Position numbers and translations under genes: made by a program. A stretch of DNA of 64,000 nucleotides, taken from Martelella limonii. Lineage in GTDB: Bacteria; Pseudomonadota; Alphaproteobacteria; Rhizobiales; Rhizobiaceae. Positions 40,313 through 58,357 of the stretch are shown piece after piece. The stretch spans positions 62,001-126,000 of the forward strand of contig NZ_JABUOU010000002.1 in NCBI RefSeq assembly GCF_013344475.1, read 5' to 3'. The notes beneath the pieces are model-generated. The model worked only from the letters and a program-made list of their open reading frames with translations. It had not been told where the DNA came from and made no database searches. The number at the start of each line of letters is the position of its first letter. Within the stretch, counting starts at the first letter, position 1.

Positions 40313-40609
40313 ATGTCCCGCACGTGTGAATTGACTGGCAAGGGCGTGCTGTCCGGCAACAATGTCAGCCATGCCAACAACAAGACCCGCCGCAAGTTTC
40401 TTCCCAACCTGTGCCGGGTGACCCTGATGTCGGAAGCAACCGGCATGAGCTACCGTCTGCGTGTTTCGGCAGCGGCACTCCGCTCCGTAGAGCATCGCGG
40501 TGGTCTCGATGCATTCCTGATCAAGGCTGGTGAAGGCGATCTTTCGCCGCGCGCCCGCCTCCTGCGCAAGGAAATCATCAAGAAGACGGCTGAACAGGCC
40601 GCTGCCTGA
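40313..40609 (+). CDS. rpmB: 50S ribosomal protein L28
   Basis: A 98-aa L28. [33 protein letters not shown] is the canonical start, with the basic C-terminal region [18 protein letters not shown]. The alphaproteobacterial form, about 95-100 aa, is longer than the E. coli 78 aa and lacks zinc-binding Cys pairs. It has its own promoter and a strong terminator directly behind. Gene order with DUF3108 upstream is common in Rhizobiales. Confidence 0.97.
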
Positions 40610-40633
40610 TCCAAGGCAACTGATCATATTGGG

Positions 40634-40670
40634 GAGCCTTGCCGCATGCCGGTGAGGCTCTCTTTATTTC
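40634..40670 (+). terminator. intrinsic terminator after rpmB
   Basis: GAGCCTTGCCG (40634-40644) and CGGTGAGGCTC (40650-40660) pair over 11 bp with two wobbles and a 5-nt loop, followed by TCTTTATTTC. It lies 25 bp past the rpmB stop and 9 nt before the candidate preQ1 aptamer, so downstream transcription needs read-through or a separate promoter. Confidence 0.75.
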
Positions 40671-40678
40671 TACTCCAA

Positions 40679-40708
40679 CTGGTGGCATCACCCAGGATAA
40701 AAAAATGC
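40679..40708 (+). ncRNA. candidate preQ1-I riboswitch overlapping the start codon
   Basis: The RNA CUGG-UGGCAUCAC-CCAG-GAUAAAAAAAUGC fits preQ1-I. P1 is CUGG/CCAG, the loop ends CACCC as in Bacillus queC, and the A-rich AUAAAAAA tail is the same as in that aptamer. A pseudoknot can form between GCAU in the loop (40685-40688 region) and AUGC of the tail, which contains the AUG start at 40705. The AGGA ribosome site is at the base of P1. Ligand binding should therefore block translation of the transporter. The gene it controls is a queuosine-precursor transporter, which agrees. Sequence resemblance is visible; ligand and function are inferred. Confidence 0.7.
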
Positions 40709-41331
40709 GGCAGACAGTGATCGTCTATAGCCTGCTGATGGCAGGCGTCGTGCTTCTTTCAAACATTCTCGTCCAGTATCCGGTTTCCGGATCGCTTTAT
40801 GGTATTTCGCTCGCCGATCTTCTGACCTGGGGCGCGTTTACCTATCCGCTTGCCTTTCTGGTCAATGACCTCACCAATCGCCAGTTCGGTCCGTCTGCGG
40901 CCCGCAAGGTGGTGATTGCCGGTTTCGTGGTGGGCGTTGCGTTTTCCTTCTACGCCTCGGTGCCGCGAATCGCGATCGCATCCGGTACGGCGTTCCTGGT
41001 CGGCCAGTTCCTTGATATCACGGTGTTCAACCGTCTGCGCCGCCAGACCTGGTGGAAGGCTCCGCTTGCGGGCTCGCTGATGGGCTCGGTGCTCGATACG
41101 GTGCTGTTCTTCTCGATCAGCTTTGCCGCCATCTTCGCCTTCATCGGCCCGAATGACGACTTTGCTCTGGGCATGGCGCCGCTGTTTGGCGTGTTCCCGA
41201 TCGACGTGCCGCGCTGGGTGTCCTGGGCGCTCGGCGACCTTTCGGTCAAGGTCGCCTTCAGCCTGATCATGCTGTTGCCCTATGCGGCGCTGATGTCGTG
41301 GATCAGGCCGCAAAGGACGATCGTGGCCTGA
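40705..41331 (+). CDS. queuosine precursor transporter (VUT/YhhQ family)
   Basis: A 208-aa membrane protein of the VUT/QPTR family with about six hydrophobic segments. TWGAFTYPLAFLVNDLTNRQFG is the family signature, and GSLMGSVLDTVLFFSISF is in a later helix. The E. coli relative YhhQ imports preQ0 and preQ1 for queuosine tRNA modification. The ATG at 40705 is chosen because it starts the conserved MRQTVIVYSLLMAGV; an in-frame TTG at 40639 is inside the rpmB terminator. The start codon is embedded in the candidate riboswitch. The next gene is convergent with stops adjacent. Confidence 0.88.
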   Translation: MRQTVIVYSLLMAGVVLLSNILVQYPVSGSLYGISLADLLTWGAFTYPLAFLVNDLTNRQFGPSAARKVVIAGFVVGVAFSFYASVPRIAIASGTAFLVGQFLDITVFNRLRRQTWWKAPLAGSLMGSVLDTVLFFSISFAAIFAFIGPNDDFALGMAPLFGVFPIDVPRWVSWALGDLSVKVAFSLIMLLPYAALMSWIRPQRTIVA

Positions 41332-58258: not shown

Positions 58259-58286
58259 AAAAAAACCGGTCGCAAAGGGACCGGTT
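58259..58286 (-). terminator. intrinsic terminator between SAM-II aptamer and metZ
   Basis: On the minus strand AACCGGTC (58286-58279), a 7-nt loop and GACCGGTT (58271-58264) form an 8-bp stem ending in seven T residues. It is 13 nt before the metZ start, so this leader can stop transcription as well as translation. Confidence 0.8.
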
Positions 58287-58293
58287 CACCCGG

Positions 58294-58346
58294 CCTTTTA
58301 GCTAGTTGTTTAACGTGGCTGCAAGCCGACCGGCCAAATCACCACG
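58294..58346 (-). ncRNA. SAM-II riboswitch
   Basis: The minus-strand RNA contains CGUGGUGAUUU, then a GCCG-GU-CGGC hairpin, CUUGCAGCCACG and the 3' GCUAAAAGG, the conserved parts of the SAM-II (metA-type) aptamer. P1 is CGUGG/CCACG, and the pseudoknot uses the 3' GCUAAAAGG segment. SAM-II before metA or metZ is well known in rhizobia. It begins about 5 nt after the predicted transcription start. Confidence 0.9.
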
Positions 58347-58357
58347 GGTATAAAGGC

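Follow-up and report, generated by a model that had tools for sequence, protein, structure and literature searches.

The start of a queuosine-precursor transporter gene in Martelella limonii raises the question of whether the 30 nucleotides (nt) around its start codon form a preQ1 riboswitch and, if so, of which kind. Within the window, by which we mean the whole analysed stretch of 64,000 nt, this element reads CTGGTGGCATCACCCAGGATAAAAAAATGC and occupies positions 40679-40708 of the forward strand (Table 1). The original prediction had described a P1 helix of CUGG and CCAG and a loop GCAU complementary to an AUGC that includes the start codon, all of which can be read directly in the window. 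It had also placed the downstream gene in the VUT/YhhQ family, and the open reading frame 40705-41331 indeed matched the profiles Vut_1 (PF02592; 83.4 bits, cut-off 27.2) and TIGR00697 for queuosine precursor transporters (91.9 bits, cut-off 50.95). A pattern describing the element, allowing up to three mismatches, gave a single match in the window, which itself contained no mismatch, while shuffled sequences yield an expectation of 0.05. The 30-nt element at the transporter start codon is real and far beyond chance. A promoter scan of 40560-40760 contained no sigma-70-like site. Elsewhere in the window, a SAM_alpha (SAM-II) riboswitch (RF00521) was found at 58278-58355 on the minus strand with 79.2 bits, which is ordinary for this group.

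Table 1 Features of the element and its surroundings (window coordinates).
Feature	Position	Strand	Basis or remark
rpmB (50S ribosomal protein L28), upstream neighbour	40313..40609	+	Profile matches
Terminator-like hairpin between rpmB and the element	40631..40663	+	14 pairs, then TTATTTCTAC
P1 helix, 5' strand CUGG	40679..40682	+	Sequence and family loci
Loop L1 (UG)	40683..40684	+	Types a and b have G as second base; type c has U, like E. coli type III
P2 pseudoknot, 5' strand GCAU	40685..40688	+	Complement of AUGC; base 40685 covaries with +4
Loop L2 (CA)	40689..40690	+	Sequence of family loci
Predicted ligand-specificity cytosine	40691	+	Immediately 5' of the P1 3' strand; by eye, corresponds to C14 in the E. 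coli crystal structure (excerpt of PMC10622847)
P1 helix, 3' strand CCAG	40692..40695	+	Sequence and family loci
Shine-Dalgarno-like AGGA	40694..40697	+	AGG = 40694-40696; overlaps P1 in part
Loop L3 (GAUAAAAAA), A-rich	40696..40704	+	A run near-invariant in loci
P2 pseudoknot, 3' strand: AUG and first base of codon 2 (C)	40705..40708	+	ATG = 40705-40707; frame and covariation
Queuosine-precursor transporter gene (YhhQ/COG1738/QPTR, Vut_1), 208 aa	40705..41331	+	Pfam and TIGRFAM-type profile matches

To see how widely the element is conserved, we collected the leaders of the transporter gene, which was present in 13 of 13 genomes of the genus and 143 of 151 genomes of the family; as two genomes were common to both sets, this gave 154 distinct leaders. 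All of them were examined (141 + 13), and the element was found in 146. The original prediction had considered such a copy in an alphaproteobacterium unusual, a view that does not hold for this family-level group (f1), which we take to be the broad Rhizobiaceae of GTDB, the group of the genera named below. The element is missing from eight leaders (L041, L126, L145, L164, L168, L388, L389 and L173, where it is degenerate), five of which stem from genomes of 1.1-2.6 Mb (G018, G122, G102, G104 and G068). Loss of QueA was considered as a cause. Since only two of the eight genomes (G018 and G102) lack QueA and six retain it, this could account for part of the losses at most.

Among 133 loci of equal length, the 29 positions that run from C1 to the G of the AUG include 23 with 1.9 bits or more, and the remaining six (positions 6, 7, 11, 12, 18 and 19) carry 0.85-1.84 bits. 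The 30 nt upstream of the element show 0.01-0.64 bits (mean 0.16), and within the coding sequence +4 retains 0.47 bits and +5 only 0.04. Our finder script demanded U5, G or U at position 6, CAU, the specificity C, at least three of four P1 pairs and a run of A before TG. These positions are therefore partly constant by construction; no such requirement applied to the P1 bases, to G18 and U20, or to the greater part of the A run. A Shine-Dalgarno-like AGG is present in 141 of the 146 motif loci, in 135 of them 8 nt 5' of the ATG, and L3 mostly comprises 9 nt with a range of 8-13.

Next to its conservation, the covariation between the loop and the tail is informative. The loci fall into three loop types. 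Type a, the type of the window (UG followed by GCAU), comprises 65 loci, all with C at +4; the 12 loci of type b (UG followed by CCAU) all have G there; and in type c (UU followed by CCAU; n = 69) the base is A in 31, C in 24, T in 14 and G in none. The second residue of the type-a transporters is L, Q, R or P (63 loci), showing that the fixed base is the first of codon 2 only. On a tree of 105 transporters from the pattern-found set, the 49 type-a rows showed no change at +4 and the 50 type-c rows showed 14. Positions +5 to +18 changed 4-18 times each within type a on a 103-row tree, which included one type-b row (L215) as a wrong-frame protein. The loop type itself changed six times, too few for pairwise sign tests on independent contrasts to reach significance, and the tree argument therefore rests on the 0 versus 14 changes at +4. 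As an observation on type c, a G at +4 would extend P2 with the loop CCAU and is found in 0 of 69 loci; with UU in L1, a fourth P2 pair thus seems, from these sequences, to be selected against.

P1 reads CTGG/CCAG in 145 of the 146 loci and CCGG/CCGG in the remaining one (L165), while L183, a locus outside this set, has CUUG/CAAG. Because the helix is almost invariant, its support rests on the compensatory changes in these two loci. In addition, two Bartonella loci (L200 and L251) carry U-G wobbles, and one pair is broken in L244. When 33 distinct sequences were aligned, 92.0% of cells were paired under the pseudoknot structure, compared with at most 47.3% for slid structures. Four of five pairing measures lay above all 500 shuffles and the fifth, which counts further pair types, did not (311/500); the underlying MAFFT alignment misplaced a few tails. 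Taken together, the comparison of sequences supports an RNA pseudoknot between the loop and AUG(+4). The loop-tail covariation among relatives that the original prediction had named as a check is present and reaches into codon 2, and together with the gene family it supports a candidate preQ1-I riboswitch with the AUG inside its pseudoknot.

In 143 of the 146 loci, the motif ATG and the transporter share a reading frame, and the three exceptions are all of type b. Out-of-frame type-b loci comprise L142, L169 and L396 (the leaders of G035, G051 and G113) as well as L182, L215, L236 and L284, Aureimonas included, and their likely transporter start is found 7-17 nt 3' of the motif AUG. In all seven, C and not G follows the P1 3' strand; L129 also has C yet is in frame. 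In L236 and L284, the motif AUG opens a reading frame of 5-6 codons, and the end of this frame overlaps the probable first codon of the transporter (GTGA and ATGA, respectively), which suggests, as read from these sequences, a leader ORF with translational coupling.

How far does the element extend beyond these leaders? An exact-pattern scan of species genomes returned at least 118 loci. Among the 118 matches listed, the open reading frame starting at the motif ATG matches a transporter by blastp in 108. Three others have the transporter in another frame (L182, L215 and L236), L252 and L284 end early but resemble transporter starts, and L231 runs to the contig end. Four further matches (L194, L205, L232 and L274) were judged to be chance. 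Type a in this list includes Rhizobium, Agrobacterium, Sinorhizobium/Ensifer, Neorhizobium, Shinella and Hoeflea, among others; type b Aureimonas and one Mesorhizobium; and type c Mesorhizobium, Brucella, Bartonella and Phyllobacterium. The product encoded at L183 shows only 21% identity to the transporter by blastp, yet it is a Vut_1 protein by Pfam. This locus (L183:22-47) lies on a contig of a Limnohabitans metagenome-assembled genome (MAG), where an AUG-type element with a compensatory P1 change precedes the distant Vut_1 gene; it may reflect horizontal transfer, convergence or a binning error.

A covariance model of the element (R1) was employed to search genomes sampled at higher taxonomic levels, with stricter filters that lose weak matches. 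Across 398 phylum-level genomes it gave 16 strong matches of 47-52 bits, all in the window's family and all beside the transporter. Outside the family the best score among the matches listed was 30.2 bits (G974). Of 385 class-level genomes, a sample in which the window's own genome is the only member of its family, no other exceeded 26.2 bits among the matches listed. At E up to 1, about half of the class and phylum genomes returned matches. We fetched 43 of the weak ones (L294-L322 and L338-L351), and none had an adjoining transporter (tblastn, E up to 1e-4). Inspection by eye of 110-nt leaders from 27 members of other families of the order revealed no element, and in viral contigs none of eight pattern matches preceded a transporter.

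With its distribution at hand, we turned to the relation of the element to known preQ1 riboswitches. Class I is characterised by an H-type pseudoknot in which a P1 hairpin is joined by P2 between loop and tail, as indicated here by compensatory changes in both helices. A specificity cytosine adjoins the P1 3' strand at C40691 and in the relatives, where the finder script required it. An A-rich L3 joins P1 to P2. By its position, at the start of a transporter of this family, the element would control queuosine import. The original prediction had stressed the likeness to the Bacillus queC aptamer. The tail of the Bsu queC aptamer resembles that of the window element; in class I type II, to which that aptamer belongs, loop sequence and size are unlike those of the rhizobial element. 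The type II aptamers Bsu queC and Tte share the H-type pseudoknot and the A-rich L3, and AC before the P1 3' strand is found in the window as well (CAC directly preceding CCAG). The position just 5' of the specificity C, occupied by A13 in E. coli, holds an A in 67 of 69 loci of type c and varies more in the other types (55 of 65 for type a, 7 of 12 for type b). This AC is common to types II and III, and regarding mechanism, Tte partly occludes the Shine-Dalgarno sequence and Bsu drives transcription termination, neither capturing a start codon (excerpt of PMC11625349). By comparison, the closest subtype of class I is the type III aptamer of gammaproteobacterial yhhQ and not the Bacillus queC type. 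The length of about 30 nt, which had been thought reduced and unusual, is normal for class I with its 25-45 nt (excerpt of PMC9495176). Class II and III preQ1 riboswitches share the ligand and the target pathway but have other pseudoknot architectures (HLout; excerpt of PMC11625349), and none of their models exceeded the gathering score in the window.

Type III is almost exclusive to gammaproteobacteria, and its solved representative is the E. coli yhhQ aptamer, in which P2 is formed by the pairs U11-A28, C10-G29 and C9-G30, U7-A27 contacts preQ1 in a triple, and C14 is the specificity base (excerpt of PMC10622847). The E. coli yhhQ leader contains the loop UUCCCUCAC and the tail AAAAAGG. By eye, a type III-like element combining this kind of loop with AGG is present in 28 of 31 gammaproteobacterial leaders (30 and E. 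coli) and absent from three (L368, L369 and L381); a script matched 27 of the 31, placed L360 wrongly and missed L361. The rhizobial element and E. coli type III have in common the gene family, with control of yhhQ predicted from position, P1, the specificity C, UU in L1 (type c), the pyrimidine-rich loop, the A-rich L3 and the register of P2. In particular, the type-c loop UUCCAU[CTA]ACCC compares with UUCCCU[CA]ACCC in gammaproteobacterial yhhQ leaders and differs from the E. coli loop in one base, C10 to A, which is matched by G29 to U in the tail. Mapped by eye, the A of the AUG occupies the position of A28 and the A preceding it that of A27. Through this swap of CCU/AGG for CAU/AUG, the start codon takes the place of the Shine-Dalgarno sequence in P2: where type III pairs AGG (AAGG), the rhizobial element pairs AUG (+4). 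It further differs from E. coli in a 4-bp P1 that is nearly fixed as CUGG/CCAG and in an L3 of mostly 9 nt. The UU following the P1 5' strand in type III is found in 69 of the 146 family loci; the window has UG, and types a and b add a fourth P2 pair with codon 2. As G replaces U7 at the second L1 position in the window copy, the ligand pocket must differ there from that of E. coli. Judging from these alignments, the variant probably derives from the type III aptamer, or has a common origin with it, by way of a compensatory exchange of the P2 partner from AGG to AUG.

A comparison with Rfam, which the original prediction had proposed, proved of little help. The preQ1-I model RF00522 gave no match on the window, and it exceeded its gathering score of 39 bits in 0 of 41 family genomes and in 1 of 14 control genomes. 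Sub-threshold matches of 14.4-16.6 bits overlap the element in three relatives (G027, G038, whose leader is L171, and G052). With E up to 10, the same model also misses the solved aptamer of the E. coli yhhQ leader, and its silence is therefore uninformative. Within the same E limit, six other Rfam models had matches close to the element (McaS, rnk_leader, mir-1549, ST7-OT3_4, PA5194_thermometer and Chlorobi-1), all far under gathering and attributed to chance. The McaS and rnk matches cover the rpmB terminator hairpin, and ST7-OT3_4 (minus strand) and Chlorobi-1 overlap the element by at least 15 bases at 11-13 bits.

To place the transporter in its metabolic context, we surveyed the queuosine pathway in 41 family genomes. 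Tgt is present in all 41 and QueA in 40, QueF is over cut-off in 24, the window's included, and QueC exceeds 180 bits in 13; the curated QueC cut-off of 22 bits admits weak matches, so that 39 pass formally. In the window genome QueF, Tgt and QueA are present but QueC has no strong match (best 24.1 bits), so that this importer is probably needed; the organism probably takes up preQ0 or preQ1 and completes queuosine on its own. In 16 of the 41 genomes, Tgt and QueA occur without QueF over cut-off and without QueC above 180 bits, and these genomes hence seem dependent on imported preQ1. In E. coli, preQ1 and preQ0 were transported by a Bartonella member of the PF02592 family, which also takes queuine with low affinity (excerpt of PMC11570991).

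On the basis of the gene and of the E. coli relative, from which ligand, switching and direction are deduced, the element is very probably a class I-type preQ1 riboswitch that acts as a translational OFF switch of a queuosine-precursor importer, in a variant that captures the start codon. When preQ1 or a close deazaguanine accumulates, it would pair with C40691 and lock the pseudoknot. P2 would then bury the AUG and, in type a, the first base of codon 2. Some of the AGGA Shine-Dalgarno sequence would be held in P1, with the spacer lying in the P1 groove as L3. The ribosome would be excluded and import would stop. Without ligand, the short 4-bp P1 would open and the gene would be translated.

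An unlikely alternative keeps fold and mechanism and replaces the natural ligand with preQ0 or, in host-associated members, queuine. Precursor import seems common in view of the QueC and QueF counts, and the Bartonella transporter also accepts these compounds; however, QueA, which acts on preQ1-modified tRNA, is encoded in nearly every genome, and the affinity of the closest solved aptamer is about 138-fold lower for preQ0 than for preQ1 (excerpt of PMC10622847). Conservation and covariation by themselves show RNA structure and not a ligand, so that a conserved pseudoknot or hairpin read by a protein or the ribosome would leave the same trace. The type-c loop is nevertheless near-identical to the ligand-contacting E. 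coli loop, targets the same gene family and is accompanied by a retained A-rich L3, which renders a ligand-free element very unlikely.

The short helices that enclose the AUG and part of the Shine-Dalgarno sequence might also belong to an RNA thermometer or to a constitutive attenuator that merely lowers translation. We regard this as highly improbable, as a thermometer has no need of a conserved unpaired loop and A run, and the 16 strong model matches of the phylum sample all lie beside one metabolite importer. High sequence conservation would equally be expected of a DNA operator or a protein-coding constraint, but loop and +4 covary despite four different amino acids at residue 2 in type a, conservation falls at +5, and a single reading frame cannot span all loci because L3 differs in length between them; the probability of this explanation is close to negligible. 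Within the preferred reading of a preQ1-responsive OFF switch, it appears likely that the element constitutes a separate, start-codon-capturing subtype of class I, in which aptamer and initiation region are one 30-nt object with the Shine-Dalgarno sequence in P1, the spacer as L3, and the AUG and codon 2 in P2. This subtype would have evolved from the SD-capturing type III by the AGG-to-AUG swap, with the RNA structure dictating the choice of residue 2.

Literature searches on preQ1 riboswitches in alphaproteobacteria, COG1738, rhizobia, Bartonella/yhhQ, Brucella and the start codon yielded no description of the element among the records listed; an earlier mention is possible in the original type III paper, reportedly McCown 2014. 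The phrase "start codon" does not occur in the available portions of PMC11625349 and PMC10622847, nor does "riboswitch" in those of PMC11130926 and PMC11570991. For Brucella abortus, the list in the accessible part of PMC9495176 contains no PreQ1 riboswitch, and gammaproteobacteria figure as a sporadic site in an excerpt of PMC2258182.

If our reading is correct, a regulatory RNA that spans the family, including Rhizobium, Sinorhizobium, Agrobacterium, Mesorhizobium, Brucella, Bartonella and others, would have been missed by the Rfam PreQ1 model. It would represent a riboswitch that grips the start codon rather than the Shine-Dalgarno sequence inside its ligand-binding core, tie the second amino acid of the protein to the structure of the RNA, and offer a direct evolutionary test of how an aptamer is retargeted from the Shine-Dalgarno sequence to the AUG. 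In cells without QueC, the element would be the control point of what is probably their sole source of queuosine.
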